Origin: Streptomyces chrestomyceticus JCM 4735
Lineage (GTDB): Bacteria; Actinomycetota; Actinomycetes; Streptomycetales; Streptomycetaceae
DNA length: 64,000 bases
NCBI RefSeq assembly: GCF_003865135.1
Contig: NZ_BHZC01000001.1
Coordinates: 682,001-746,000, forward strand
Direction of reading: 5' to 3'
Shown here: positions 20,416 through 37,925 of the stretch, in pieces
Numbering within the stretch: the stretch's first letter is position 1
Layout: each line of letters opens with the position of its first letter
The notes under the pieces: generated by a model
What the model saw: only the letters and a program-made list of their open reading frames with translations
What the model was told of the DNA's origin: nothing
Databases searched by the model: none
Made by a program: the position numbers and the translations under genes

Positions 20416-22030
20416 CTCCAGACCCCCTTGTCCGCCGACGACCGGCGGGCCGGGGTTGCGGTGCGTACGGACACCCGCCGCCGCCAGGAAGAGGTGGAGG
20501 CGTACGTTCGGCGCCACCGGCTGGACGCCGTGGTGGAAACCGCGCTGGCCGATCCGGACGCGTTCCGCACCGCGGCCGCGGCCTACCGGGCGGCCGGCCA
20601 CCGCATCGAGGTCGCCGTGCTGGCCGTGCCGGAGGCGGTCAGTCAGCTCAGCGTGCTGGAGGGTACGTGGGCCAGGCCGAAGCCGCCGGCGCGGGACGTT
20701 ACGTATCCGTCGCCTCCCACGACCTGTGCAGCCGCGCCCTGCTGGGCACCCTTCGCGTCATAGAGGCCGAGGGCCTGGCGGACCGCATCACCGTCTTTCG
20801 CCGCGACCGTGAAGTACTGGCCAGCACCGAGCCGAACGGCGTGGCCCGCGGCGGTGAAGGGGCCACGGCGGTGGTGGCCGCGGAGCGGTTACGGCCCTGG
20901 ACCGCGCGCGAGACCCAGACGTTCCGTCAGGCGATGTCCAGGGCCCAGCAGCGGGTGCACCCCGAGCGGATCTCCCGTGAGCGGCACCTGGCGGTGGCGC
21001 AGGGCGTCGAGCGGGCCTTCGCCCTGTCCGAGCCGGTGCGCCGGATCGCCCAGGTCTGCGAGGAGCCGCCGGGCGTCGACTACCACCGCCTGTCCCACGA
21101 CGAACACCACTGGATCTTCAACGAGCTGATCACCCCGGGCTATCTCGCGACATCGTCCCCCAGGAGCAGCCCGTCGCCGTGTACGTGATGGGCCGGCCGG
21201 GCGCGGGCAAGACCGGAGCGGCCACCCTCGTCCGGCACGCTCTGCGGGGTCGGCATCCGGTGCGGCTCTCCGGCGACGACTTCGTGGCGATGCACCCGGA
21301 CTACCACCAGCTGCTGAAGGACAGCCCGCGCGGCGCGGGCGCGGCGAGCCGCGCGGACTACCGGGCCTGGATGGCCGAGGCCGAGGCGTACGTACGCCGG
21401 CGCCGCGGTGACCTGGTCATCGAGATGGCACCGGGCAGTCCGGAGGATTTCCTGCGCAGCGCGATCCCGGCCGCGCAGACCGGCTACCGCGTCGAGGTCG
21501 TGCTGCTGGGGGTACGCGCGGCCGACAGCCGCCAGGGCACCGCCCACCGCTACCCCCAGACGCTCCGGCACGGCCTGCCGGGCCGCTTCATCTCCCGGCA
21601 CGGACACGACCGCTGCTTCACGGCCCTGGCCGACGTCGCCCGGACCGCCGAGACTCACCCGGCGGTGGACTCGGTCCTGGTCCTGCGGCGCGACCACACC
21701 GCGATCCACCGCAGCGATCACGCCCCGAGAGGGGCCTCGGCGGGCCCGGGGCGCGCGGCCGCGGCCCTGGCGGCGGAATGGCAGCGGCCCTACACCGTGC
21801 GGGAAACCGCCGGCTTGCTGTCCGCCCACCGCGTGCTGCGGGCCGCCTTGCCGCAGTACTTGCCGCAGTACCGGGACGAACTGGCCGACATCCTGGCCCT
21901 GGCCTGGCCGCTGATGCCCACGCACCTGCAGCCGCCCCGGCTGCCGTCCCCGGCCGGGCTCGTAGGGCTGACCCTGCCCGCACCGCGCGCCGAGCGGGCT
22001 GCGGATTACTCGGTGGTCAGCCGGGCGTGA
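20416..22030 (+). pseudogene. Two-domain zeta toxin (UDP-GlcNAc kinase family), frameshifted and 5'-truncated
   Basis: Three consecutive frames make up one protein. (1) LSADDRRAGVAVRTDTRRRQEEVEAYVRRHRLDAVVETALADPDAFR, the C-terminal half of a zeta domain whose Walker-A half is missing. (2) After a 1-bp loss near 20661: YVGQAEAAGAGRYVSVASHD to YHRLSHDEHHWIFNELITPGYL. (3) After a second shift near 21146: a full zeta domain with Walker A GRPGAGKTGAA (about 21191), RLSGDDFVAMHPDY and VIEMAPGSPEDF. The second domain has its own GTG (21179), so a partial toxin could still be made. Family proteins phosphorylate UDP-GlcNAc. Confidence 0.75.
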
Positions 22031-22296
22031 AGTGCCGCACAGCGCGCCGCGCTCTGCTCCACCTCGGCCGGGCCGAGCTCTGCTGACCGCAGCCGCTGCT
22101 GGTCGGCGATGCAGGCCCGCTGGCCTTCCATCAGTTGCGCAAGCCGTGCTTCGTCCGGGGCCGTGGCCCGGCGCCCGGCCAGGATCCGTTCGGTGTACAG
22201 GGCGATCACCTGGCGCACGAGAGCGTGCACCGCACCGGCATCGGCTGGCTGGCGCCCGCCCCCGGCCGGGGAGGGGCTGGCGGGTTCGTCGGGCAC
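22006..22296 (-). CDS. Small acidic/helical protein convergent to zeta toxin, candidate antitoxin
   Basis: 96 residues from GTG 22296, with AAGGTGG upstream. It reads VHALVRQVIALYTERILAGRRATAPDEARLAQLMEGQRACIADQQRLRSAELGPAEVEQSAARCAALHARLTTE, entirely helical and rich in Ala/Glu/Arg, similar in style to epsilon-type antitoxins and to small proteins coded next to Streptomyces zeta toxins. Its last 25 bp overlap the 3' end of the zeta gene. Antitoxin function is inferred from position only. Confidence 0.6.
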   Translation of the reverse strand: MPDEPASPSPAGGGRQPADAGAVHALVRQVIALYTERILAGRRATAPDEARLAQLMEGQRACIADQQRLRSAELGPAEVEQSAARCAALHARLTTE

Positions 22297-24893: not shown

Positions 24894-25385
24894 CTACTGG
24901 ATCCACCACCGCATGTACGGGTTGCCCGTGCCCCAGGGGCTCGTGTAGGCCTGGCCCTTGGCATTTGAATCCAGCGCCCTGCCATTGTAGACGCTTTTAA
25001 TGATCCACGCCCCGTTGTAAGCACTTTCGGTCCACTTTTGGATATTATGGTCCGAGCATGGAGCAGTTATAACGCCATCACCGCTGTTGGCTTCGAGGCA
25101 CCTGTTGGTCTGTACGTTCCTCAGCCGGAACTCATCTCTCGAAGCGTCGTAGAGGTAGCTCCACTGCTGGTAGGCGTTGTGCTTGTCCCAGGCGCAGTCT
25201 TTCGTGTAGACGTTGCCCTTGGCGTCGGAGTCCAGGCAAAGCCCCGTCTGCTCGTTCCTGAGCTGGTTTCCCACCGCCTGGATTCCGGCTTCGGCGGCGC
25301 TCGCGCTGCTGGGCATGCCGGCCAGCAGCATGGCGCTCGCTCCCAGGGCTGCTGCCAGTCCTGAAAGAACGGTTCGCTTGTTCAT
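24894..25385 (-). CDS. Secreted ricin-type beta-trefoil lectin (copy 1)
   Basis: 163 residues. Signal peptide MNKRTVLSGLAAALGASAML then LAGMPSSASA, cleavage near AEA. Mature part has three beta-trefoil repeats: LRNEQTGLCLDSDAKGNVYTKDC...YQQWSY, FRLRNVQTNRCLEANSGDGVITAPC...IQKWTE and ALDSNAKGQAYTSPW...YMRWW. The QxW motif is partly kept (QQW, QKW). A small extracellular carbohydrate-binding protein. It is a tandem paralogue of the next gene; the leader region is shared nearly word for word, so this is a recent duplication. Confidence 0.85.
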   Translation of the reverse strand: MNKRTVLSGLAAALGASAMLLAGMPSSASAAEAGIQAVGNQLRNEQTGLCLDSDAKGNVYTKDCAWDKHNAYQQWSYLYDASRDEFRLRNVQTNRCLEANSGDGVITAPCSDHNIQKWTESAYNGAWIIKSVYNGRALDSNAKGQAYTSPWGTGNPYMRWWIQ

Positions 25386-25728: not shown

Positions 25729-26217
25729 CTACCACTGCCACCACTGCATGTACAGGTTGCCCGTGCCATAGGGACTCGTGTAGAGCTGGCCCTCGTGATT
25801 TGAATCCAGCGCCCTGCCGTTGGCGGCGCTCTTGAGAATCAGCCTCTCGCCGTCGAGGTGCTCCCAGGTCCACTGATGGGACGACGGCGGATAATTCGAG
25901 CACTGCTCGGTACTGACAGCGTCGCCGCCGCCGACTCCCAGGCACCTGAGAGTTTTCTCGTTCCTCAGCACGTAGCCGTCAGACTTCCAGACCAGGCTCC
26001 ACCTCTGGTACGGGTTGTCGTTTCCACAGGATTTCGTGTAGGCGTTGCCCTTGGCGTCGGAATCCAGGCAAAGCCCCGTCTGCACGTTCTTGAACTGGCG
26101 TCCCGCCGCCTGGGTTCCGGCTTCGGCGGCGCTCGCGCTGCTGGGCATGCCGGCCAGCAAAATGGCGCTCGCTCCCAGGGCTGCTACCAGCCCTGAAAGA
26201 ACGGTTCGCTTGTTCAT
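25729..26217 (-). CDS. Secreted ricin-type beta-trefoil lectin (copy 2)
   Basis: 162 residues from ATG 26217. The signal peptide is nearly identical to copy 1 (MNKRTVLSGLVAALGASAIL). Trefoil repeats: FKNVQTGLCLDSDAKGNAYTKSC...YQRWSL, YVLRNEKTLRCLGVGGGDAVSTEQC...HQWTW and ALDSNHEGQLYTSPY...YMQWW. The middle repeat has diverged from copy 1 much more than the first and last, consistent with changing ligand preference after duplication (inference). Confidence 0.85.
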   Translation of the reverse strand: MNKRTVLSGLVAALGASAILLAGMPSSASAAEAGTQAAGRQFKNVQTGLCLDSDAKGNAYTKSCGNDNPYQRWSLVWKSDGYVLRNEKTLRCLGVGGGDAVSTEQCSNYPPSSHQWTWEHLDGERLILKSAANGRALDSNHEGQLYTSPYGTGNLYMQWWQW

Positions 26218-26639
26218 GAGGAAACCTTTCGTAAATTCACTGAAGAATTTTTTCCGTGCCGGTTTTTCCCGTCGGTGCCGACCGTGTGAGTGCATCGGGC
26301 AGCCGGCACCAGCCGCCTAAGCGTGTGGCACATCACGCCACTGCCACAGCGGGCGCCCCTCACCCTGTTGTGCGGACCTAACGGTTATCTAACGTCGATC
26401 CAACGTCGGCACCCAGGCGCCCCTCTCGCTCCGCCCGGCTGCACGGCCCACCGGCAGGTGAGTTTCCCGCGCGCTAAAACCGAAGACGGGCCCCGGGCCC
26501 ACCCCCTCGGCGGAGAACAACCGCCGCAGACCCGGACCGAAAGGCACGCGATGTTCGCGCGGACCCTCCCCGGAGCTGGCCTCCCGCCTCCTGCGGATAG
26601 CCATCAGCGGAGTGGAACCACGGACGTAGTCCCGGCTTC
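26218..26639. other. Upstream region of lectin copy 2
   Basis: About 420 bp. The first 55 bp are the duplicated leader. The rest shows no gene; a T/A-rich stretch near 26380-26400 (GGTTATCTAACG) is a possible promoter site but unproven. Confidence 0.35.
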
Positions 26640-26899
26640 GCTGGCACCTGCCCGTCATGGCGATGACGGCAAGCCGCCAGGTCCACAGCCGACCGACTTC
26701 GAGTTCCATGCCGTGTTCGGTCATCATCATGCCGATCGCCGCACCGAGCCCGAGCGGCTCGCGGCCGTCATCGGCGTACGGCGGTGCCGGTGCGCCGCTT
26801 CGGCTTCTTCGTCTGGGCGACGCTGTTCTTCTTCGCTGTTTCCCGGGCCGCGACCAGGGCCTGGCGGGCGAGGCCGACGCCGCTCAGCTCGCCGGTCAT
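26640..26899 (-). pseudogene. DUF721-family gene relic
   Basis: From ATG 26899: MTGELSGVGLARQALVAARE then TAKKNSVAQTKKPKRRTGTAVRR and TGA. One extra base (CGC CGA T GAC GGC) separates this from DGREPLGLGAAIGMMMTEHGMELEV in the next frame. Together these are the conserved N-terminus of Streptomyces DUF721 proteins of the plasmid/arm type. After GRLW the similarity ends. So a frameshift and a 3' truncation. Confidence 0.65.
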
Positions 26900-26904
26900 T
26901 CGCT

Positions 26905-27800
26905 CACCGCCCCGCCGGGGGCGCCGTCCAGCGGGCGCGCGGCGAGGCCGGGCGGCCGCTCCGTCCCCGACGCGGCCCCCCCGGGCCGGGCCGGCGGACC
27001 GCTCGTGCAGCTGCTCCAGCCGCGTCGCCAGCAGGTACTCGGCTACGCACTCCCTCGCCGTGCCGGCGGCCGTCGTCGCGGCGGCGACGGCGTCCGCGCG
27101 GTCGGGTTGTGCCGGAACCAGGGGCGCCCCTGCTCGGACCGGAACGCTCGCCGGGCCTCGGCTTCGGCCTCCTGCGTACGGCCCAGCACCGCCAGGGCGT
27201 CGGCCTGGTACTCGCCGACGGCCTGCTGCGCGGCCTGCAACGCGGTGAACGCGGACGCGTCCGCAGCAGCCTGCGGAATCGGCCTCCAGGGCGGCTACCC
27301 CGGTGATCGCCAGCAACTCCTGCCACGCGGTGACGCTGTCACCGATAGCCGTGCGGGCCCCGGCGACGCAGGCCGCGATGCTGCCCGCATCGCTCAGATC
27401 GGCGGACCCGGACGCCGCCAGAAGACCGGCCTCACCGATCAATGCCTCAGTCTGACGGCGGTGGTCGCACGCCTCGCACAGCCCGGCCGCCCGACCGCGC
27501 CCGCAGTCCTCGCACGCCAGCGCCTGGCGGACCACGTCGGCGGCCGCGGCCTGACACTCGCGGTCCGCCTGCTCGGCTGCTGCCACACGGACCGCATCGC
27601 ACCGGGCCCGCTCCGCGCGGGCCTGCTCCGCGCGGGCCTGCTCCTGACGCCACGCGAGGCCCTCCGCCTAGATGGCCGCGTGCTCGCGCAGCCGCTGCTG
27701 CGAGGACGCGGCGGCGCTCGCCGTCAGTCAGGCCGGGCAGCTCCCGGTCGATGTCCGCGCCGATCCGGGCGCGGCGGGCCCGCCGCCTCAGCGCTGCCAT
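26905..27800 (-). pseudogene. Plasmid-type hypothetical gene, multiply frameshifted
   Basis: Segments in different frames line up in order: MAALRRRARRARIGADIDRE and LPGLTDGERRRVLAAAAARAR; then AEGLAWRQEQARAEQARAERARCDA and CEDCGRGRAAGLCEACDHRRQTEALIGEAG; then a piece around FTALQAAQQAVGEYQADALAVLGRTQEAEAEARRAFRSEQGRPW; then ARECVAEYLLATRLEQLHE. At least three frameshifts and an internal TAG are present. Two CxxC knuckles (CEDC, CEAC) are seen. The AEAEARRA...E.GR.W segment recurs in the gene at 38539-38946. It immediately precedes the DUF721 relic, as in plasmid-like gene strings. Confidence 0.6.
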
Positions 27801-27866
27801 GCAGGTTTCCGAGCCGCCCGCGGCGTACTCAAGGCGGCTCGCTCTCGTGTGCTCTTGCCTGCTCTT

Positions 27867-28931
27867 TCAGTCCTTCAGGAGGCCACGCTCACTGACGAGG
27901 TAACCCGCGTGCATGCGGGTCTTCGCGCCCAGCCGCCGCATGATGACTTCTATGTGGCGCTGGCAGGACCGCAGGGACATGTTCAGTCGTCGCGCGATCA
28001 CCCGGTCCTCGACACCTTGCACCATGAGACGCAAGATGGTGCGCTTGGTGCTTTCGGAAATCTCGTCCACCACCTGGCGCTCGCAGGAGGTGCTGAAGGT
28101 GATGCCCCGGGTCCACGCCCGCTCGAAGGCGGCGACCGCGAAAGAAACCACGGCGGAGTCCCTCACCAGCACGATCCCGTCTGAACGCGTGTGATCGGGA
28201 AACACCGCCACTTGCCCGTCGAAAACGATCAGTGGCATGAAGCTGTCACTCCGGGTGCGGTACGACGTGTTGCGCTGCGCCTGGTCCTGCATGCGCTCGG
28301 TGAGGTCCCGCCGGAAGCGCGCCGTGTGCGGGAACAGGGTGCGGACCACGACATCCGCACTGAGCACGGACTTGCCGCCTGAATGGAAATATGGCATGGC
28401 CGCGACAGCGGCGGACACGTCCGGCTCGGAGAGCAGGATCTCCGAGCGGCAAGATGCGGCCAACTGCAAGGTCAGCTCGGCTGCTTGGGACGGCGAGGTG
28501 ATGACCTCCACGGTTGCGGGTCCCGCGCAGCACGCGGTTCTTTCCCGGTAGACGCTCGTGAGCTCGTGGAGCACCGCACTGATGCGGTCGACCTCGTGGT
28601 GCCGGCGCTCGATATCGCGCCGCAGCGGTCCGACGAGTTCGACTCGCGCCGTCTCAGGTGACACTGCGCAGTAGTGCGCGGGCGACGTGGAGTCGGCACG
28701 AACCAGATGCAGCCGAAGCAACCTGACAATCGACGTCTCAATCTCCTGCTGCTGCCGTCCGGTCCCTGATGCGATTTCCCTGATGGAGCATTGAGCGACC
28801 CCGGCCATCCAGCTATAGATCTCGCGGTCCTCACTGCGGAGAAGAGCCGTCTCGGGCTCCGTGGACCGCGATCTGAGTGAACCCTCGTCATGTATGACGC
28901 GCGACGCAGTAGGCACGGTGGAATCCCTCAT
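27867..28931 (-). CDS. LuxR-type HTH regulator
   Basis: 354 residues from ATG 28931 (GTG 28958 is an alternative nine codons earlier). The N-terminal third resembles a TrmB-like winged helix (EIYSWMAGVAQCSIREIASGTGRQQQEIETSIVRLLRLHLV). The middle is a PLD-like/ligand domain (VEVITSPSQAAELTLQLAASCRSEILLSEPDVS). The C-terminus is a GerE/LuxR helix-turn-helix (ILRLMVQGVEDRVIARRLNMSLRSCQRHIEVIMRRLGAKTRMHAGYL). Such TrmB-LuxR hybrids often stand beside antibiotic or lanthipeptide genes in Streptomyces. Divergent from the ArsR-like gene and likely cluster-linked (inference). Confidence 0.8.
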   Translation of the reverse strand: MRDSTVPTASRVIHDEGSLRSRSTEPETALLRSEDREIYSWMAGVAQCSIREIASGTGRQQQEIETSIVRLLRLHLVRADSTSPAHYCAVSPETARVELVGPLRRDIERRHHEVDRISAVLHELTSVYRERTACCAGPATVEVITSPSQAAELTLQLAASCRSEILLSEPDVSAAVAAMPYFHSGGKSVLSADVVVRTLFPHTARFRRDLTERMQDQAQRNTSYRTRSDSFMPLIVFDGQVAVFPDHTRSDGIVLVRDSAVVSFAVAAFERAWTRGITFSTSCERQVVDEISESTKRTILRLMVQGVEDRVIARRLNMSLRSCQRHIEVIMRRLGAKTRMHAGYLVSERGLLKD

Positions 28932-29161
28932 TCTACCGCCGGGCGGAAATACGACCACCTGGCTGGCGTTCTCTTGACGGGCCGGAAGCTTAACCTATCC
29001 GTGTCACCGGAACCGGGATACGCCTCGCCCCGGCACCTATGCCTCCTCATGACCGCAGCGTGCCCGGTAGCCGCCCTTACCTTCGATGCCGCGGCGCGTG
29101 GCTCGCTCACCTCCGGCGGACGTGCAAAACCTTCGCACCAAGAAATGGAACTGTCACACTC

Positions 29162-30117
29162 GTGCAACGCGTAACTCTTTGTGTCGACGACTTGGCGCGC
29201 ACCAGAATCATCGGCACACTTGGCCGACACGTCGAGGCGATATTCGCAGTGGATGCCCTGCGTAACACGAAGAGCGACTTCCTGCGGGCTTGGCGCCGCG
29301 AAGTGCTCGTGAAACTAGCGCAACCAGGAAAGGAGATTGCACAGGCCCGGCGGCTGGCACGAGTGAGTGGCGGCTCCCGGGAGGTCCTGTCCGCCTGGTC
29401 GAGCGTCGCAACGGCGCCGGGTACGGCCCACTCCGGCACCCCGGGTCTGCAGAGAGCACATTTAACAGCAGCCATTGAAGAGATGTGCCAGGTGGCCGTG
29501 CGGCCCCACTGGAGGCGCGTTCATGCCCACCTCGCCTCGGCCCAGGACTTCCGCCGGGACGCCATGTGCCGTGACGGAATCGAGGCCCTGCTGAACGGCC
29601 TGGGCCCGGACATACGTTGGAACGCGCCCGTGCTGGAAATCCACTCCGCGGGCATGAAACATGTGAAGCCGAACGGGCGTGGACTGCTGCTGTCCCCCTC
29701 GCTCTTCCTTCAGGGGGGCGCCGCGGTGCTTCCGTCGCTCCCGGGCCGGGCGGGGAGCAGCCCGGTCTTGATCTTCCCTGACCGCCCAAGTGGCCATCAC
29801 TGCTCACTTCTGGACGAAGGGCGCTCATCCTTGGCCGCCACAAGCCGCCTGCCGCAAGAGAGCCTGGCGGCCCTGCTGGGCAGGACTCGGGCCGCCATTC
29901 TTCATGCATTGCGTGACGGCTGCACCAACAGTGAACTCGCCGAGAAACTGGGGTCACCCCGGGTGCGGTGAGCCAGCACACCGGCACGCTGCGAGCTGCC
30001 GGACTGATCTCGACCCGCCGCAGCGGCGGCGGTCGTGTCGTGCACACCGTCACCACGCTCGGTCGCCACCTTCTGCACGCCGGTCCGGAGCCTGCCGAAC
30101 TGTGTGATGTCACGTGA
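29162..30117 (+). pseudogene. ArsR-family-like regulator with single frameshift near 3' end
   Basis: From GTG 29162 the protein reads VQRVTLCVDDLARTRIIGTLGRHVEAIFAVDALR, then EEMCQVAVRPHWRRVHAHLASA and EIHSAGMKHVKPNGRGLLLSPSLF, ending at TGA 29971 just inside the C-terminal helix-turn-helix (ILHALRDGCTNSELAEKLG). One base later the domain continues: VTPGAVSQHTGTLRAAGLIS then VVHTVTTLGRHLLHAG, to TGA 30117. The break is at CTGGGGTCACC; one G in this run would restore the frame. So either a recent knock-out or a sequencing error. Intact homologues are about 320 residues with a C-terminal ArsR-type winged helix. Confidence 0.75.
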
Positions 30118-30229
30118 CAGACGGCTCGTCGACCGATTCTCCCATGACACCCGTCTGGTTCCGCCAACGGATTCCTGCACTTTCCTTGCGCCTGCCTGCG
30201 CCGTCAGCCGCTGTGCGCCTCCTATTTAG

Positions 30230-30260
30230 CTGACACTAAAAAGGTTGCACGTTGTACGAT
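30230..30260 (+). promoter_or_regulatory. Candidate promoter of the lanthipeptide operon
   Basis: CTGACA (30230-30235) and TACGAT (30255-30260), 19 bp apart, in an AT-richer patch (CTATTTAGCTGACACTAAAA) 110 bp upstream of the lanKC start. The base composition stands out from its surroundings. Spacing is slightly long, so this is tentative. Confidence 0.4.
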
Positions 30261-30370
30261 TTTCTCGGATCGTGATCTTCATCAACACGAGGCGGAAAAG
30301 CTGGCCTTTCCTTGATGTCCGGCACGCCGCTTGGCGGTTTCCCTGCGCATAGGGGCGATGGAGGAACGAA

Positions 30371-33046
30371 GTGGACCCAAATTATGGGGTGTATACCGTC
30401 GCAGATTCCCCTTGGTATGAGCCGCTGGAACGCTGTGACGATGTCGCCTCGCGGTTCTCTTTGGCCGGGCGCGAATTGCCTGACGGGTGGAAACGGAGCC
30501 AGCATGGCGTCTGGGAAGTTCTCACCCCCACCGGGGGGCCGCAGATGCCAGGTCAAGGCTGGAAGATTCACGTCACTGCGACGCCCGATACTGCCGAGGA
30601 AACCGTCGAGCGGACCTGGGCGGTGTGCCGGCGGCTGAACCTTTCCTGGAAGTTCCTGCGAAGCCGCCGCGTCACTCACGTGCTCAACAGCAAGTACGCC
30701 AGCCGCGCCGCCAGCGGCAAGGTCGTCACCGTCTATCCGCGTAACTCGGAAGAATTGCGCATAGCCCTTACTGAACTTGATACGGTACTTGGCGGCCGCC
30801 CAGGTCCGTACATCCTCTCCGACCACCGGTGGAACACGGGGCCGGTGTCGGTCCGGTACGGGGCGTTCACGCTCATGTGGTGTGAACTGCCCGACGGCGC
30901 CCGGGTGCCGGCACTGCGCGATCCGCAGGGCAACGCCGTCCCCGACCGGCGTCGGCCGGTCTTCACCGTTCCCGAGTGGATCGACATCCCGGATTTCCTC
31001 GCCGCCAGCCTTGCTGCGGCGCCCGGGGGCGCTGACGACACGCTCAACGGGTACAAGGTGCTCAAGGCCCTGCACTTCTCCAACGGCGGTGGCGTGTACC
31101 TGGCCGAGGCCCCCGACGGCACCCAGGTCGTCTTGAAGGAGGCGCGGCCGCATGCGGGCCTGGACGCCTCCGGCGCCGACGCGGTGGAACGGCTGAGCAA
31201 CGAATGGTCGGCCCTGGAAGCCGTCGGCCACCTGCCGTTCGTCCCGCGTCCCATCGAGTACTTCACCGTGTGGGAGCACCACTACCTGGCCATGGAGCGT
31301 ATCCGGGGAGAATCGCTCAGCACGTGGATGGGCCGCGACTACCCACTCACCCGGCACGACCCCGATGAGGGGATACGCGCCGCCTACACCACGCTGGTCC
31401 TCGACTACTTGGGCCAGGTGGAGGCCGCCGTCGAGTCCCTGCACAAGGCGGGGCTGGCCTTCGGCGACCTCCATCCGCACAACATCCTCATCCGTGACAA
31501 CGGCACCATCGCCCTGGTGGACTTCGAGATCGCCACGGCTGTCGACACCGAACGCACCGCCGTGCTCGGCGCCCCCGGCTTCATGGATCTGTCACTCACC
31601 AGCGCCCGCGACTGTGACCTCTACGCCCTGGGCTGCTGCCAGCTTTCCGCAGTCATGCCGCTCACCGGCCTGGTACAGCGCACTCCAGCGGTCGTCGGCC
31701 ACCTGATCGAGATGGCCACCACCGCCTTCCCGACACTGCCGGCCACATACGTCGAGCGGACGGCGGAACGCCTGGCCCTGTCCCCAACCGTGCGCCCCCA
31801 CCTTCCCAGCCACCGGATCGGCGCGGTGCCCGCGCTCGCCCCACCGCGCGCCCCCTCTCTGCTGCGCGGCATCGACCGAGCCGCTGACACCACCCGCACC
31901 GATCGTCTCTTCCCCGGCGATATCGCCGGGCACCGGGACGGCGCACAGCTCGGCCTCGCCCACGGCACCCCCGGTGTCCTCCTCGCCCAGCTGAGCACCG
32001 GCTCCTGCGTAGACCCCGAGCACCTCGCGTGTCTGGAACGCGCGGCCCGGCGGGCCCCGGCCGGCACCCCGCTCGGCCTGTACGACGGTCTGGCCGGCAC
32101 GGCATGGCTGCTGCACCTGCTCGGCAGCCCACTGGGCGAAAAGCTGATCGACCGCATCCTCTCCAGCCAGCTACCCACCTCGCCGGGACTGTTCAGCGGA
32201 CTGACCGGCATCGCCCACCTTCTGTTGGACGTCGGCTTGTCGGACGCCGGCGTGCGCGGCGAAGCACTCAAACTGGCAGCGGCCGTTCGGGACCGCATCG
32301 GCGAGGACGGCCTGCTGGACCGCCCCGGCCTGATGTACGGCTGGTCGGGACCAGCCGTACTGCTCGCCCGCTGCGCCCGGCTGACCGGCGACGAAGAGTG
32401 GGCCGAGGCCGCCGCGGCTGCTGTCCGCGCCGACCTCAAGCATGCGCGGGAGCTGGACGGAACCCTCCAGATGAGCAGTTCCCGGCGACTGCTGCCCTAC
32501 CTCGCCGAGGGCTCGGCCGGAGTCGCCCTGGCAGCCATCGCACTGCCCGGCACGCAAGCCGCCGAGGTGGCCGTCGACGCCATTGTTACGGGAGCAGCAC
32601 GCGCCGCAGCGGTCCACACCGTGGTCCAGGGCGGCCTGTTCAACGGCCGGGCCGGTCTTGCCTACTTCCTGTCCCACGCCGCTGCTCATGTACCGCAAGC
32701 GCGCAGGTGGGCCGAGCGCCAGCTATGCCTGCTGTCCCTGCATGTGGCTGACCACGACGGCGGCCAGGTCCTCTACGGTGACCAGCTGCTGCGCCTGTCC
32801 ACCGACCTGGCCACCGGCGCCGCCGGCGCCCTGCTGGCGATGCAAGCAGCCAAGACTTCCGGCGCGCCCCTGCTTCCTGGTGCTCACCCGACCAGGGTTG
32901 ATCACCGGCCGCAGCGGACCGCCGGATCCTGTGCGTCCGCACGCGGAGAGGAGGTGACTGATCATGACGAACGTTCTCGCACTGCAGGAACTCGCCGAGG
33001 AGACCCGCCTGGAGGGGATGAGCACCCTCAGCGTCTGGGGCTGTGA
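30371..33046 (+). CDS. lanKC: Class III lanthipeptide synthetase LanKC (lyase-kinase-cyclase)
   Basis: 891 residues from GTG 30371, with GGAGGA 5 nt upstream. Residues about 1-215: lyase domain. About 225-500: Ser/Thr-kinase-like, with glycine loop FSNGGGVYLAEAPDGTQVVLKE (Lys), catalytic loop FGDLHPHNILI at about 363 and DFE at about 384. About 525-830: LanC-like alpha-toroid with GLAHGTPG, GLYDGLAG, GLFSGLTG, GLMYGWSGPA and GLFNGRAG. The zinc ligands of LanC/LanL (Cys in the W-C-x-G motif and C-H in CHG) are absent, which puts it in class III rather than IV. It phosphorylates core Ser/Thr, eliminates to Dha/Dhb and forms labionin/lanthionine. The unusual Arg-rich end overlaps the first precursor gene by 83 bp. 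Confidence 0.93.
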   Translation: MDPNYGVYTVADSPWYEPLERCDDVASRFSLAGRELPDGWKRSQHGVWEVLTPTGGPQMPGQGWKIHVTATPDTAEETVERTWAVCRRLNLSWKFLRSRRVTHVLNSKYASRAASGKVVTVYPRNSEELRIALTELDTVLGGRPGPYILSDHRWNTGPVSVRYGAFTLMWCELPDGARVPALRDPQGNAVPDRRRPVFTVPEWIDIPDFLAASLAAAPGGADDTLNGYKVLKALHFSNGGGVYLAEAPDGTQVVLKEARPHAGLDASGADAVERLSNEWSALEAVGHLPFVPRPIEYFTVWEHHYLAMERIRGESLSTWMGRDYPLTRHDPDEGIRAAYTTLVLDYLGQVEAAVESLHKAGLAFGDLHPHNILIRDNGTIALVDFEIATAVDTERTAVLGAPGFMDLSLTSARDCDLYALGCCQLSAVMPLTGLVQRTPAVVGHLIEMATTAFPTLPATYVERTAERLALSPTVRPHLPSHRIGAVPALAPPRAPSLLRGIDRAADTTRTDRLFPGDIAGHRDGAQLGLAHGTPGVLLAQLSTGSCVDPEHLACLERAARRAPAGTPLGLYDGLAGTAWLLHLLGSPLGEKLIDRILSSQLPTSPGLFSGLTGIAHLLLDVGLSDAGVRGEALKLAAAVRDRIGEDGLLDRPGLMYGWSGPAVLLARCARLTGDEEWAEAAAAAVRADLKHARELDGTLQMSSSRRLLPYLAEGSAGVALAAIALPGTQAAEVAVDAIVTGAARAAAVHTVVQGGLFNGRAGLAYFLSHAAAHVPQARRWAERQLCLLSLHVADHDGGQVLYGDQLLRLSTDLATGAAGALLAMQAAKTSGAPLLPGAHPTRVDHRPQRTAGSCASARGEEVTDHDERSRTAGTRRGDPPGGDEHPQRLGL

Positions 33047-33053
33047 CACCTGA
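32964..33053 (+). CDS. lanA1: Class III lanthipeptide precursor A1
   Basis: 29 residues, ATG 32964, preceded by GAGGAGGTGACTGATC. Leader MTNVLALQELAEETRLEG contains the L-x-L-Q motif that class III synthetases recognise. The core STLSVWGCDT has one S-x2-S-x3-C unit (Ser20, Ser23, Cys27), the exact labionin signature. S-x-x-S-[LV]-W-x-C is the same ring sequence as in labyrinthopeptins, but those carry two such units and this has one. Starts inside the end of lanKC in another frame. No protease gene is nearby; class III leaders are usually trimmed by housekeeping peptidases (family knowledge). Confidence 0.9.
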   Translation: MTNVLALQELAEETRLEGMSTLSVWGCDT

Positions 33054-33099
33054 TCGTCTGCCGAAGGATACGCCTATGCCTGACAGGAGGTGACTGATC

Positions 33100-33189
33100 A
33101 TGATGAACGTTCTCGCACTGCAGGAACTCGCCGAGGAGATCCGCCTCGAGGGATGGAGCACCCTCAGCGCCGTCAACTGTGACACCTGA
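33100..33189 (+). CDS. lanA2: Class III lanthipeptide precursor A2
   Basis: 29 residues, ATG 33100, behind the same AGGAGGTGACTGATC leader as A1. The leader differs at only two places (M for T at 2, I for T at 14). The core STLSAVNCDT again has S-x2-S-x3-C, with AVN in place of VWG inside the ring, and W for M at residue 19 just before the core. A tandem duplicate of A1 whose leader was kept while the ring interior changed. A hairpin follows 25 bp after its stop. Confidence 0.9.
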   Translation: MMNVLALQELAEEIRLEGWSTLSAVNCDT

Positions 33190-33213
33190 TAGCTCTCAGT
33201 CATGTGAGAGAAG

Positions 33214-33252
33214 GGTGCGGGGAGGCCATGTCGAGTGCTGCCTCCCCGCACC
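33214..33252 (+). terminator. Stem-loop between precursor genes and transporter genes
   Basis: Perfect 13-bp stem GGTGCGGGGAGGC (33214-33226) / GCCTCCCCGCACC (33240-33252), with a 13-nt loop and no T-run. The permease start lies 36 bp beyond. Such a hairpin after lanthipeptide precursor genes usually causes partial termination, so that precursor exceeds transporter message (inference). Confidence 0.7.
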
Positions 33253-33287
33253 ATCTCCAGCGGACCGCTCTATGAAGGACAGCAACC

Positions 33288-35240
33288 GTGTCTGCCATGT
33301 CCCCCACCTCGCCCCCTCTGGCCGCCCCGCGCATCTCCCCCACCCGTCTCCTCTGGTCGGAAGTACGCGCGTATCCCGGGCGGGTGATCGGTGCTGCGGC
33401 AGCGTGCTGCGCCACGGCGGCGGGTGTCGGGGCATGCCTGTTGCTGCTGCTGGGCGCGGGCCTTGACAATCACCCGGCGGACTCGCCCGAAGCGGCTGCC
33501 GCCCAAGGCGCTCAGCAGATCATGGGACTGCTGATGTCCATGCTGCTGCTGTGTGCAGTCCTGGTCACCGGCTCCACCCTCTCACTGTGGACGGGACAGC
33601 GGCTACGGCAGTTCGCCGTCCTCCGGGCCCTGGGGACCACCGCCGCCCGGCTGCGGCTGATGGTGGCCGCGGACGTGGCACGCCTGGCCCTGGTCTCGGC
33701 GGCCGCCGGTGCCGCGACCGGAGCCCTGCCGCTGGCAGCGCTCGGCCGTCGCCTGCTCATCGAGCAGCAACTGTGGCCCGCCGGCACCTCGCTGCCGCCG
33801 CCCGCCCAGACATGGGGCGCCTGCGCCGCCGTGTGCCTGGGAACCGGCGCCATCGGCGTACTCGCCGCGCTGCTGAGCGTGCGGGCCGCCGGACGGGTCA
33901 ACGCAATCGACCTCCTGAAGGACCACGAGAGCGCGCCCGGACTCCAGCGCAGCCGCGCCCGGCTGATCACCGGTCTGTCCGTAGCGTTGCTGTTCTGTGC
34001 GCCCTTGCTGCCCTACATGGCCCTCGCCCCGCTTTCGACAAGGGAACGCGCCGCTGCCCCCACAGTGCTGGCCGTGCTCGTCATCCCCACTCTGGCCGTG
34101 CTGGCCCCGTGGATCATCCCGCCGCTGACCCGACCGCTGTGCGCGGTCCTGCGCGTGCTGGACCGGCGCGTGGGCGCCCTCGCTGCCGCCGGGCTGCGGG
34201 CCACGCCCGCCCGCACCGCGGCCCTGGCCGTTCCCGTCCTGCTGGCCGTGGGGATCACCGCCTGCCTGCTCGGCGCCGGCGCCACCATGGGTCGCGCGAC
34301 CCAGCAGGAGGTCACATCGGCGCTCCGGGCCGACGCGGTGATCAGCGCGGAACCGGGAGTCCGGCTCCCGGCCAGTCCCGGCCCGCTCCCCGGAGCCACC
34401 GCCACCCCCGTGGTGGCCACCCAGGTCACCGTGCCCGGCCGCAAACGCCGCTCAGCGCCCAAGCCCATCCGTGCCTGGGGCGTGGACGGACGCGTGCTGA
34501 CACGCGTGCTGGACCTTTCCGCGCGCGAGGGGGACCTCACGAAGGTCGCCGAGGGCACCTTCGCCGCAGGCGCCACCTTCGCCGACGAGGCGAAGTGGAA
34601 GATCGGCCAGTCTGTCGACCTGACGCTGGCGGACGGGACGACACAGCGATCCACCCTCGTCGCGACCTACACGCGCGACCTGGCGTTTCCCCGCATGATT
34701 CTCCCGCGCGCCACCGCCCTCGCCCACACCGCCTCCCCCGCCGCCGACCGTATCTTTTTGACGGGGCCGAGCAGCGCCTGGCCCGCGGCGAAGGGCCAGA
34801 CCGTCGCCTCACGCGAGGACTATGCGCGGACCTTCACCCGCAACCCCGGCGACGACCTGGCCACCCGCCTGATCGTGGCGGTGGTCGCGGCGTACGCACT
34901 GCTGGCGGCGGCCAACACCAGTTCGCTGGCGCAGCGTGACCGGGTGGCGCAGCGCGCCCACCTGCGGGCCCTGGGCCTCAGCCGGCTCCAGATGGTGCGC
35001 TGTGTGCTGTATGAGGCCCTGGGCGGAGGGGCGGTCGGGGCGGTGCTCTCCGGCCTGGTAGCCGTGGTGTGCCTGGTGCCGCTGTCGGTGGCCCTCGGCC
35101 TCGGTCCGCTGCCGGCGGTCGACGTGCCGTGGACCGCGGGTGTGCTGGCGCTGGCCGCTGTGGCGCTCGGTGTCCCCGCCCTCATGACGGCCCATCCTCT
35201 GCTGGCCGTCCAGCGACAGTTCGCCCGGAGAGGGCAGTGA
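33288..35240 (+). CDS. ABC transporter permease, FtsX-domain type
   Basis: 650 residues from GTG 33288 (GAAGGACAGCAACC upstream). N-terminal TM near residue 30 (VIGAAAACCATAAGVGACLLLLLGAG) and two FtsX blocks. The first is WTGQRLRQFAVLRALGTTAARLRLMVAADVARLALVSAAAGAATG. The second, near the C-terminus, is NTSSLAQRDRVAQRAHLRALGLSRLQMVRCVLYEALGGGAVGAVLSG. A large extracellular segment lies between. Works with the separate ATPase at 36525. Exports or extracts peptides from the membrane; here the lanthipeptide or immunity to it is the likely job. Confidence 0.88.
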   Translation: MSAMSPTSPPLAAPRISPTRLLWSEVRAYPGRVIGAAAACCATAAGVGACLLLLLGAGLDNHPADSPEAAAAQGAQQIMGLLMSMLLLCAVLVTGSTLSLWTGQRLRQFAVLRALGTTAARLRLMVAADVARLALVSAAAGAATGALPLAALGRRLLIEQQLWPAGTSLPPPAQTWGACAAVCLGTGAIGVLAALLSVRAAGRVNAIDLLKDHESAPGLQRSRARLITGLSVALLFCAPLLPYMALAPLSTRERAAAPTVLAVLVIPTLAVLAPWIIPPLTRPLCAVLRVLDRRVGALAAAGLRATPARTAALAVPVLLAVGITACLLGAGATMGRATQQEVTSALRADAVISAEPGVRLPASPGPLPGATATPVVATQVTVPGRKRRSAPKPIRAWGVDGRVLTRVLDLSAREGDLTKVAEGTFAAGATFADEAKWKIGQSVDLTLADGTTQRSTLVATYTRDLAFPRMILPRATALAHTASPAADRIFLTGPSSAWPAAKGQTVASREDYARTFTRNPGDDLATRLIVAVVAAYALLAAANTSSLAQRDRVAQRAHLRALGLSRLQMVRCVLYEALGGGAVGAVLSGLVAVVCLVPLSVALGLGPLPAVDVPWTAGVLALAAVALGVPALMTAHPLLAVQRQFARRGQ

Positions 35241-36508
35241 CCGCAGTGCTGTCGATACCGGCACTGGGCAGACCGTTCTGGCTGTTGTTCGGCGGGGAGG
35301 CCGCGTCAGCGTTCGGAACAAGCGCCTCGGTCATCGCGCTGCCGGTGGTCGCGATGCAGGCCTCCGGGGATGTCCGGCAAGCCGGGCTGGCAAGCACAGC
35401 GTTGTCCGCAGGTATTCTCCTGGCCCGCCTGCCTGCCGGAGTGTTCGCGGATCGTTTCGACCGCCGGACGCTGCTGCTCTGCGGCAACCTGCTCGGCGCA
35501 GCGATCCTGGGGATTCTGGCGCTACTTCAGTCGAGCAGCGCCCTTGACCTGCCTGTGCTGACGTCTGCCGCGCTCCTTTTGGGCATGGCGGGCAGTACCT
35601 TGACGCCGGCCGAGAATGTCGCCGTCCGCAATCTCGTGCACCCCGACCTTCTTCCGAGGGCGTTGTCGTTGATGCAGGCACGCACGGCGGTGTCCCTGAT
35701 CGCCGGGCCAGTGGCCGGCGGCGCGCTGCTCACAGCGGAACCGGCGTGGGTCTTCACCTTCGATGCCGTCACCTATCTCCTCGCGACAGCCTGTATGGCG
35801 GCCCTGCCGTCGGGGGCGGGGCCTGTCGGCCCTGGGCAACCCACGCTGAAAGCCGCCTGTGAAGGCGTCCGTTTCCTGTGGCGCTCGCCGTTTCTGCGCT
35901 ATGCGGCGATCAATGCCGCCGTTCTCAACCTGATCTTCAACGGCCTTCTGATCGTCATCGTCACCTCGGCCGACGGGGAGAGGGCCGGCCTGAGCATCGG
36001 TGTGCAGACCGCGGCGATCGGGGCCGGGGTTCTGGTGGGCTCCCTGATCGCCCCGGCGGTAGCGCGTCGTTGGCCGGCGGCGCGAGGGATCGCGCTGTCC
36101 ACCGGCGCGATCGCCGTGGCACTGACGGGCTTCGCGCTCGTCCACGGCAGTGGGGCTGCGGCGTTCCTGCTCGCTGTCGCCTCCGTGTTCGGACCAATGG
36201 TCACCGTCTTGCTGACCACCGCGCAGATGCGGGTGACCCCATCCGGGCTTCAGGGCCGAGTGCACAGCGGGATCGGCTTCCTTGCCCAGGCCGCCTCGCC
36301 GCTGGCTCCCACGCTCGTTGCCGTGTCCACCCACGCCTTCGGCCTCTTTCCTACCGTACTGGGGGCAGCACTGCTGGTGGTCCTCCTCGCCCTCGTCGGC
36401 AACGTCGTCACTGCCCGCCACCTCCGCGCCACACCCCCGGCCACGGCCACGACCGGATGCCCGCCGGAGGCGGCGATCACAAACCGACGGCCAGAAGCCG
36501 GAACCTAG
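35237..36508 (+). CDS. MFS transporter within the lanthipeptide operon
   Basis: 423 residues from GTG 35237, overlapping the permease stop (GTGA), so translationally coupled. About 12 TM segments. It has LPAGVFADRFDRRTLLLCGNLLGA (motif A loop) and NVAVRNLVHPDLLPRALSLMQARTAVSLIAGPVAGGALL, the pattern of enterobactin-exporter/MFS_3-like drug exporters. It sits between permease and ATPase of one ABC system, an unusual order. Probably a second export or self-protection route for the peptide. Confidence 0.87.
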   Translation: MTAVLSIPALGRPFWLLFGGEAASAFGTSASVIALPVVAMQASGDVRQAGLASTALSAGILLARLPAGVFADRFDRRTLLLCGNLLGAAILGILALLQSSSALDLPVLTSAALLLGMAGSTLTPAENVAVRNLVHPDLLPRALSLMQARTAVSLIAGPVAGGALLTAEPAWVFTFDAVTYLLATACMAALPSGAGPVGPGQPTLKAACEGVRFLWRSPFLRYAAINAAVLNLIFNGLLIVIVTSADGERAGLSIGVQTAAIGAGVLVGSLIAPAVARRWPAARGIALSTGAIAVALTGFALVHGSGAAAFLLAVASVFGPMVTVLLTTAQMRVTPSGLQGRVHSGIGFLAQAASPLAPTLVAVSTHAFGLFPTVLGAALLVVLLALVGNVVTARHLRATPPATATTGCPPEAAITNRRPEAGT

Positions 36509-36524
36509 GAATGAGGATCAGCAC

Positions 36525-37298
36525 ATGCGATCGGCACACCCCCCGCTGAGCCGCCCGGGCCCCCACCCGGCAGCCGTTGCCCGTGACCTGACCAAGGTTT
36601 ACGACATCGAGGGCCGTCGGGTCACAGCACTGGACCGGGTGTCCCTGGACATCCGCCGAGGACACTTCACCGCCATCATGGGCCCCTCCGGCTCCGGCAA
36701 ATCCACCCTGATGCACTGCCTGGCCGGACTCGATTCCCCGTCCTCCGGCGCGGCCTGGATCGGCACAGTGAATCTCACCGAACTGTCCGACCGGAAGCTG
36801 CCCCTGATGCGCCGGGACCGGATCGGTTTCATCTTCCAGGCGTTCCACCTGCTGCCGGCCCTGACCGTCATGGAGAACATCACCCTGCCGATGGCTCTCG
36901 CCGGTAAGCGCCCGGACCCGCAATGGCTCACCGAAGTGATCACCGCGTTGGGCTTGCGCGACCGGCTGACCCACCGGCCGCCGCAACTGTCCGGCGGCCA
37001 GCAGCAACGAGTGGCCTGTGCCCGCGCGCTGCTGAACCAGCCGGAAATCATTTTCGCGGACGAACCCACCGGAAATCTCGATTCCCGGGCGGCGGCAGAG
37101 GTACTGCGGCTGCTTCAGCATGCGGTCCACCAGCTCGACCAGACCATCGTCATGGTCACACATGACCCGGTGGCCGCCTCGTGCACCGACCACGCGGTAT
37201 TTCTCGCCGACGGCACGGTTGTCGACGAGCTGCAGCAGCCGACAAGAGACCAGGTGCTCGACCGTATGCGGCTGTTCGACGCCACGGACAGCGACTGA
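36525..37298 (+). CDS. ABC transporter ATP-binding protein (MacB/LolD-type)
   Basis: 257 residues, ATG 36525, GAGGA upstream, 16 bp after the MFS stop. Complete ATPase: Walker A MGPSGSGKSTLMHCLAGLDSP, Q-loop IGFIFQAFHLLPALTVMENI, signature LSGGQQQRVACARALL, Walker B IIFADEPTGNLDS, H-loop VMVTHDP. The LDxPxxG insert and FQxFxLLPxLTVxEN motif mark the MacB/LolD group, the usual partner of FtsX permeases. Energises the permease at 33288. Confidence 0.92.
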   Translation: MRSAHPPLSRPGPHPAAVARDLTKVYDIEGRRVTALDRVSLDIRRGHFTAIMGPSGSGKSTLMHCLAGLDSPSSGAAWIGTVNLTELSDRKLPLMRRDRIGFIFQAFHLLPALTVMENITLPMALAGKRPDPQWLTEVITALGLRDRLTHRPPQLSGGQQQRVACARALLNQPEIIFADEPTGNLDSRAAAEVLRLLQHAVHQLDQTIVMVTHDPVAASCTDHAVFLADGTVVDELQQPTRDQVLDRMRLFDATDSD

Positions 37299-37407
37299 AG
37301 TGGGCACGAGCACGGTGCAGCGTGACGTCTCGGCCGCCGCCCGGCCGCGAACTCATCTCGATGCATCGCGGCTGGCTGGTCCCGCGGGGCCCCAGCCCGG
37401 ATCACCT

Positions 37408-37436
37408 ATAACACGGGACGTCTCGCATCGCGAGAC
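37408..37436. promoter_or_regulatory. -10-like box and operator upstream of 31-codon ORF
   Basis: TATAAC (37408-37413) is followed by a perfect short inverted repeat GTCTCGC-ATC-GCGAGAC (37420-37436). It stands 37 bp before the small ORF. The position just after a -10 box is where a repressor would act. Confidence 0.45.
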
Positions 37437-37472
37437 AAGAATCGGCCGATCTCGTTCCCGAAAGGAGATCCA

Positions 37473-37568
37473 ATGGAACTCAGGCGGGTCGGGTCTGCGG
37501 CGGCCATGTGCAGGCGAGGCTTTGGCCAATCCGCTTTATGGCCCTACGCCTTTGGCGGCGAATCCTGA
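37473..37568 (+). CDS. 31-residue ORF of unknown function with strong ribosome site
   Basis: ATG 37473 preceded by AAAGGAGATCCA, close to the ideal Streptomyces ribosome site. It encodes a basic first half (MELRRVGSAAAMCRRG) and an aromatic/glycine second half (FGQSALWPYAFGGES). Not recognised. It lies downstream of the lanthipeptide ATPase behind its own promoter-like sequence. It could be a small secreted or regulatory peptide, a further RiPP-like precursor, or a leader peptide. Confidence 0.45.
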   Translation: MELRRVGSAAAMCRRGFGQSALWPYAFGGES

Positions 37569-37751
37569 CCCGGAAAGAAACTGTGTGAAAGCATTGCGCA
37601 CCCAGGAAGTAGTGCTGTCACCCTCCGGAATATCCTTCGCTCTGTGTTCTCATTCTCACTCAGTTTTGCGGAAGTTGTTGCCGCACCTGATTCCCTGCCC
37701 GCTACGGGGGCAGATGCGCATATACCCGACAACCTGCTCAAGGAGGGCGTC

Positions 37752-37925
37752 ATGAGCGCAACCGAGAAGGTCAAGGCCAAAGTCGAGCAGCTCGCAGGCA
37801 CCGTCAAGAAGGAGACCGGCCGCGCAGTGGGAAACGATCAGACGGCAGCCGAGGGTACGGCCGACAAGGTAAAGGGAAATCTCCGGGAGGCCAAGGAAAA
37901 GGTCAGGGGCGCCTTCCGGGACTGA
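37752..37925 (+). CDS. CsbD-family small stress protein
   Basis: 57 residues, ATG 37752 behind AAGGAGGGCGTC. The sequence EKVKAKVEQLAGTVKKETG then KVKGNLREAKEKVRGAF shows the amphipathic KVKGxxxxxxG repeats of CsbD, a general-stress protein under SigB in Bacillus. Cytoplasmic, very hydrophilic. Function in the family is unknown. Followed by a hairpin. Confidence 0.9.
   Translation: MSATEKVKAKVEQLAGTVKKETGRAVGNDQTAAEGTADKVKGNLREAKEKVRGAFRD

Follow-up and report, generated by a model that had tools for sequence, protein, structure and literature searches.

A predicted class III lanthipeptide cluster with two closely related one-ring precursors in Streptomyces chrestomyceticus

Introduction

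The labyrinthopeptins carry two labionin units per peptide, with the ring S-x-x-S-[LV]-W-x-C. Class III lanthipeptides with a single labionin or a single ring are already known as made products, namely the bacinapeptins, the paenithopeptins, noursin and the lipolanthines. The lipolanthine nocaviogua A is described as an acylated compound whose peptide part has 8 residues and one avionin (PMC10435860), and 179 single-cysteine peptides of class III have been reported as predictions (PMC11251773). Here we analyze a 64,000-nucleotide stretch from Streptomyces chrestomyceticus JCM 4735 (contig NZ_BHZC01000001.1, positions 682,001 to 746,000), referred to as the window, which contains a lanKC gene for a class III lanthionine synthetase, two short precursor genes (A1 and A2) and three putative transport genes (Table 1). 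This locus is likely to be a class III lanthipeptide cluster making two closely related one-ring peptides.

Results

The LanKC of the window scored 868.4 bits against the NCBIfam model NF038151 'class III lanthionine synthetase LanKC' (cut-off 575) and 336.7 bits against the class IV model, short of that model's cut-off of 650. A RamC-type lyase, a Ser/Thr kinase and a LanC-like domain, without a class IV score, place the cluster in class III. An earlier sequence-only reading of this DNA had described a complete LanKC followed by two 29-residue precursors, each with a single S-x2-S-x3-C motif, and by permease, MFS (major facilitator superfamily) and ATPase genes. All of these were confirmed, the last three by domain matches on the same strand. 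The ABC (ATP-binding cassette) ATPase also matched TIGR02211 at 203.9 bits, under the cut-off of that model. The annotated form of the LanKC in S. chrestomyceticus has 887 residues.

The two precursors, A1 (MTNVLALQELAEETRLEGMSTLSVWGCDT) and A2 (MMNVLALQELAEEIRLEGWSTLSAVNCDT), combine linkage to lanKC with an LxLQ leader and one S-x2-S-x2-5-C core each, as expected for class III. Searched directly with hmmscan, both peptides passed the curated cut-off of 22 bits of NF038154 'class III lanthipeptide' (26.1 for A1, 23.3 for A2), and neither reached the Pfam RamS cut-off of 24.3 (18.0 and 16.1). A2 is a tandem copy of A1 that includes part of its upstream sequence (81% match to LanKC residues 858-889). 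The core of A1, STLSVWGCDT, is also encoded by S. rimosus WC-3904 (locus L008).

The same arrangement recurs elsewhere. Scanning 84,980 species genomes with LanKC yielded 20 loci. Seven (L007-L013) encode an enzyme 60-81% identical to that of the window; the other 13, from Amycolatopsis, are 38-44% identical and have longer, mostly two-ring precursors. Whole-genome searches contributed L060, L065 and L066, and met L008 and L011 again under other handles (L061 and L067, on the same contigs and not counted as separate loci). Including the window, there are 11 distinct related loci in Streptomyces, a sister genus and Frankia. Since about 41 of the 120 LanKC protein matches listed have at least 56% identity, membership of the family extends beyond the 11 loci whose DNA was available.

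At each of the 11 loci, one to four short precursor genes directly follow lanKC, and FtsX and MFS genes come next (11/11). The ATPase gene was detected by tblastn in 9/11; the cut end of L009 shows its first residues, and L012 ends earlier. All 27 precursors have 28-30 residues, counted from the start nearest the leader motif (some loci have in-frame starts further upstream), with the leader L-[AV]-L-Q-E-L and the ring S-[ST]-x-S-x3-C. At ring position 2, 19 precursors have Thr and 8 have Ser; the variable ring positions are mainly hydrophobic. Seven of the 27 end in Cys and 11 in His, 8 of the latter with Thr at ring position 2. GGAGGTG stands upstream of the first precursor's start at every locus, which, together with the ring motif in 27/27, is more than chance would give. 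The family's most varied set lies in the sister genus (L066:9413-9921), where four tandem precursors have Cys-ending aromatic cores such as SSYSAFNC.

In a maximum-likelihood tree of 34 LanKCs, all 11 loci fell into one group (support 100/100). Within it, the window, L060, L008 and L007 formed a group of their own (100/100), hereafter the window's sub-clade, nested inside loci that carry a linked peptidase (97/96). The tree was built without L026 (LanKC in two pieces) and L049 (contig without LanKC), and the program warned of long branches (L058, L002 and others) that do not directly touch these two nodes. The family is rare in the genome samples searched. A LanKC at E ≤ 1e-200 was present in 3/392 Streptomyces genomes, in 3/199 relatives (the same three places as in the genus sample) and, with L013 as query, in 3/394 genomes of the bacterial family; at 1e-180 it was present in 2/394 genomes of the class. 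The genus, family and class counts include the window's own genome; all are lower bounds, with two to four candidates scored per genome, and the samples overlap. Phage records gave no LanKC match at E 1e-20, and plasmid records gave 12 LanKCs, every one below 60% identity. No description of this family or its leader strings appeared in the open-access full text searched, with subscription journals and supplements outside that search.

NF038154 itself is broader than this family, including A1 and A2 but also S-x2-S-x2-C precursors beside distant LanKCs, and it does not name the present sub-family. At L050-L059 (L058 was not used, its precursor having no Cys ring motif of the family type), NF038154 precursors carry C-terminal S-x2-S-x2-C or S-x2-S-x1-3-C motifs; their lengths are 27-33 residues, or more when an upstream start is used. 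The one such locus scanned (L056:9017-12920) has ketosynthase and GNAT neighbors and is lipolanthine-like. The window's own genome holds a second LanKC, 40% identical (L002; G000:C1:6666022-6668646), followed by a SapB/AmfS-like two-ring precursor (MALLDLQAMDAPEHGGGGGGSEASLLLCWSEASIVLCL).

Catalytic residues were compared by mapping residue numbers onto ThurKC from the LanKC alignment. The eight ThurKC lyase residues described as important for elimination (Lys65, His67, Lys94, Lys108, Lys117, Asp152, Arg163 and Arg191; PMC10604976) are present in all 11 LanKCs, as are the kinase Lys, the catalytic Asp, the D and E of the DFE motif and the cyclase residue Phe770; the F of DFE is found in 10/11. 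ThurKC is reported to bind an LxLQ-type leader (PMC10604976), the type found in the window precursors. Given that both ring Ser residues are invariant (27/27), labionin would be the favored outcome. The Ser or Thr at ring position 2 (27/27) would allow three dehydrations and not just two, and with the C-terminal Thr of both window cores, two, three or four are possible. The sequence-only reading, which had overlooked both of these hydroxyl residues and the extension of the lanKC frame over A1, expected masses reduced by two waters; that loss stays among the possible outcomes but is not the only expectation.

We also considered a lipolanthine-like product, in which Cys would be decarboxylated and the peptide N-acylated. 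The one-ring precursors are very short, 7/27 in the family end in Cys, and other Streptomyces members of NF038154 end in S-x2-S-x2-C, with a ketosynthase and a GNAT acyltransferase adjoining lanKC at L056. For the window, such a product is extremely improbable: both precursors, like all 7 of its sub-clade, end in C-D-T and thus lack the C-terminal Cys from which avionin forms. Moreover, the ring spacing is x3 rather than x2, the LanKCs of the S-x2-S-x2-C members lie outside the window's clade, and no flavoprotein decarboxylase, ketosynthase or GNAT was found among the cluster genes and 10 window neighbors that were scanned, a subset of the window's genes.

An indication of product size comes from the sister loci. 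A prolyl oligopeptidase gene lies between the MFS and ATPase genes in all seven loci outside the window's sub-clade (L009-L013, L065 and L066; tblastn). Its frame is open in each, running off the contig end in L012, and PF00326 was found in the three sister peptidases scanned. Each of the 20 precursors at these loci contains a single Pro, two residues ahead of the ring (position -2). This pattern suggests that the peptidase cuts after Pro -2, and the linked peptidase and the Pro together predict products of 9-10 residues, making plausible the product of about ten residues proposed in the sequence-only reading.

The window's sub-clade differs in both features. In genome-wide searches at E 0.001, the peptidase was found in 0/4 genomes of the sub-clade, compared to strong matches in 6/6 sister genomes tested (the genome of L012 was outside this search). 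A search for Peptidase_S9_N was concordant (0/3 sub-clade and 3/3 sister genomes, one of these below the cut-off). Pro at -2 occurs in 0/7 sub-clade precursors: the two of L007 have Pro at -1, A1 of L008 has it at -4, and four have no Pro. L007 is the first branch of the sub-clade. The simplest history would be that the peptidase was ancestral and was lost once, and that the cleavage site drifted afterwards. The window's own genome has 7 matches to M1 peptidases, the group to which the unlinked leader protease AplP is reported to belong (PMC10885120). An AplP-like M1 enzyme would be the obvious candidate for trimming the leader in this lineage. The branches with and without the linked peptidase offer a natural comparison of leader removal.

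Precursor A1 overlaps the synthetase gene. For both the window and L060, the reading frame of lanKC extends 83 bases into A1, in another frame, and stops inside it; at L065 the overlap is a few bases only. The part of LanKC conserved among relatives ends at LLPGAHP near position 32890, and what lies beyond is a variable tail. We read this overlap as a drifted lanKC stop. A functional lanKC/A1 overlap was considered and dropped, given the conserved LLPGAHP end, the variable tail and the restriction of the long run into A1 to these two loci. The layout also exposes a blind spot in genome mining. A large RODEO survey is described as having discarded open reading frames shorter than 30 residues and those entirely within an annotated gene (PMC7268733); its length rule would drop A1 and A2, and its nesting rule would also drop A1. 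The newer model NF038154 picks up both.

The cluster occupies a genomic site that is variable among close relatives. On its left, positions 26706-30190 match a stretch of the S. rimosus linear plasmid pPZG101 at 91.9% identity; on the plasmid no lanKC adjoins this stretch, and the similarity ends about 180 bases short of the window's lanKC. A boundary of insertion or loss near 30190 is possible. Another S. rimosus LanKC is labeled plasmid-borne. The stretch 26706-30190 carries LuxR-type and winged-helix genes. The LuxR gene (27867-28958, minus strand; 83-84% in L008 and L060) was examined as a dedicated regulator and rejected, as it lies in the pPZG101-like stretch without lanKC. A scan of 29900-37800 gave 0 promoter-like sites (0.4 expected) and 4 terminator-like sites (2.6 expected).

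Further to the left, the window encodes two adjacent, paralogous, secreted-looking proteins with ricin-B-type lectin domains (24894-25385 and 25729-26295, minus strand) and a zeta-toxin-like kinase (21179-22030; PF06414). A zeta toxin family gene of pPZG101 lies in a stretch that is 68% identical to window positions 20485-22218.

Table 1. Features of the lanthipeptide locus, in window coordinates.
Feature	Position	Strand	Remarks
lanKC, class III lanthionine synthetase (lyase-kinase-cyclase)	30371-33046	+	GTG start, 891 residues; NF038151, RamC_N, Pkinase, LANC_like
Ribosome-binding site of precursor A1	32950-32957	+	sequence GGAGGTGA
Precursor gene A1, 29 codons	32964-33053	+	ring STLSVWGC, tail DT
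Ribosome-binding site of precursor A2	33086-33093	+	sequence GGAGGTGA
Precursor gene A2, 29 codons	33100-33189	+	ring STLSAVNC, tail DT
FtsX-like ABC permease, 650 residues	33288-35240	+	PF02687, two FtsX domains
MFS transporter, 423 residues	35237-36508	+	PF07690; GTG start picked by overlap with FtsX stop
ABC ATPase, LolD/MacB type, partner of FtsX permease	36525-37298	+	PF00005

Discussion

From features that can be read directly in the DNA (the genes, the family, the conserved motif, the gene order and the peptidase/Pro pattern), we infer a pathway covering chemistry, leader removal, export and function. LanKC would bind the LALQEL leader helix, phosphorylate and eliminate Ser1 and Ser4 of the ring, possibly Thr2 as well, and cyclize the Ser1-x2-Ser4-x3-Cys8 segment to a labionin (a lanthionine being less likely). 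Once the leader is removed, a core near STLSVWGCDT (A1) or STLSAVNCDT (A2) would remain. The FtsX permease and its ATPase, along with the MFS protein, may serve to export the product or to protect the cell. For the sister clusters, the prolyl oligopeptidase encoded alongside would cleave behind the lone Pro at -2; in the window lineage, where the peptidase appears to have been lost, an unlinked protease would have to trim the leader. The several precursor variants per locus and the putative exporters would fit an antagonistic or signaling peptide.

Several observations weigh against this interpretation. The window's own genome was missing from the list given by a six-frame genome search with NF038154, although the two peptides pass when searched directly. 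No protease was found in the window cluster or among the 10 neighbors scanned, and the association between peptidase and Pro is suggestive rather than statistical proof, because it reflects one evolutionary loss with no independent repeats. Codon differences between the window and L060, its nearest relative, were 0 synonymous and 5 non-synonymous in the A1 frame (0 and 6 in the LanKC frame), so that pair gives no signal of purifying selection on A1. Finally, the position of ThurKC Asp771 is Asn in 8/11 LanKCs and Ser in 3/11. The Ala variant of Asp771 is reported to form no protected labionin ring, and the same authors state that loop variability makes simple alignment around this residue unreliable (PMC10604976). 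The lack of conservation argues against simple transfer of ThurKC chemistry and leaves both labionin and lanthionine as candidate outcomes.

This last point bears on the alternative that the ring is a simple lanthionine accompanied by dehydroalanine or dehydrobutyrine, as in some class III peptides. S-x2-S-x3-C is described as a source of lanthionine in certain class III peptides and of labionin in others (PMC7268733), and NorKC variants at the residue adjoining the central Ser are reported to switch labionin to lanthionine (PMC10206099). We nevertheless regard this outcome as unlikely, since a lone lanthionine joined to one Ser would have no need of the second motif Ser, and both are kept in all 27 precursors.

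The cluster could also be decayed or silent, its peptidase gone, its cleavage site drifted and its lanKC stop lost so that the tail crosses A1. Absence of the peptidase from all 4 sub-clade genomes searched, the lanKC tail in A1 in the window and L060, and the reduction of L060 to one precursor would be in keeping with decay. Such decay is nonetheless distinctly improbable: all genes are open and intact, the catalytic residues are kept, the ring motif is present in 7/7 sub-clade precursors, and the whole gene order is preserved in four species.

A cluster making two one-ring peptides is our preferred interpretation. A more elaborate version, which we consider quite unlikely, is that the family is a self-standing minimal, non-lipidated one-labionin system in which the Ser or Thr at ring position 2 serves as an additional, third site of modification. 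In the window peptides this would place a dehydrobutyrine within the labionin bicycle, and the eight sister peptides that combine Thr2 with a terminal His could form a second, dehydrobutyrine-His crosslink, giving noursin-like multi-ring products of nine or ten residues. If so, the window's branch would show a system of ribosomally synthesized and post-translationally modified peptides surviving the loss of its dedicated peptidase through a shift of the cleavage site to a host protease.

If modified as predicted, the cores would be very small labionin peptides that are encoded by genes and lack a fatty acid. They would be minimal substrates for asking what decides between labionin and lanthionine, a question raised in the ThurKC structure paper (PMC10604976), and the two to four natural precursor variants beside one enzyme are ready-made variant sets. 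Since a lipolanthine peptide part of 8 residues exists, size alone is no record. The suggestion that the product would be among the smallest of the class is accordingly weakened by nocaviogua A, by the one-motif bacinapeptins and paenithopeptins, and by noursin.

The A1 ring resembles the labyrinthopeptin ring, as the sequence-only reading had pointed out, but the likeness is no family feature, with Trp at ring position 6 in 3/27 precursors, and A1 and A2 have one ring unit each instead of two. The bacinapeptins and paenithopeptins share with the present locus a LanKC, several short precursors, single S-x2-S-x2-5-C cores and a protease often outside the cluster; as described, these Pre_24 systems differ in their Firmicutes origin, a methyltransferase in the cluster, an M16 protease pair and longer modified cores (PMC8960859). 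Noursin comes from Streptomyces, as the window precursors do, with a transporter and with one labionin, the ring predicted for the window peptides, and its cluster contains an S9 peptidase as the sister loci do. Noursin is reported to have 16 residues, labionin at positions 3, 7 and 15, a His-to-butyrine crosslink and a synthetase in a separate LanKC group (PMC10206099), whereas A1 and A2 have no His to react with dehydrobutyrine, as the noursin type (LanKCHbt) would require. The S9 prolyl oligopeptidase of the noursin and flavipeptin type was absent from the window cluster and from the search of its genome, and present in seven sister loci.

Flavipeptin provides a precedent for leader removal by a prolyl oligopeptidase as proposed for the seven sister loci, although FlaP is described as cutting after Pro -12, far from the core, while the sister loci have Pro two residues from the ring (PMC10885120). 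The lipolanthines (microvionin, nocaviogua and goadvionin) resemble the present system in their class III type synthetase, single bicyclic ring and 8-residue minimum; the reported decarboxylation of their C-terminal Cys to avionin, their N-terminal acyl chain and their polyketide or fatty acid synthase genes (PMC10435860) have no counterpart seen here. What sets the family apart is its conserved operon, its Cys that may be terminal or not, the absence of acylation and decarboxylation genes from the set scanned, its invariant S-[ST]-x-S-x3-C core and its linked FtsX-MFS-ATPase genes.

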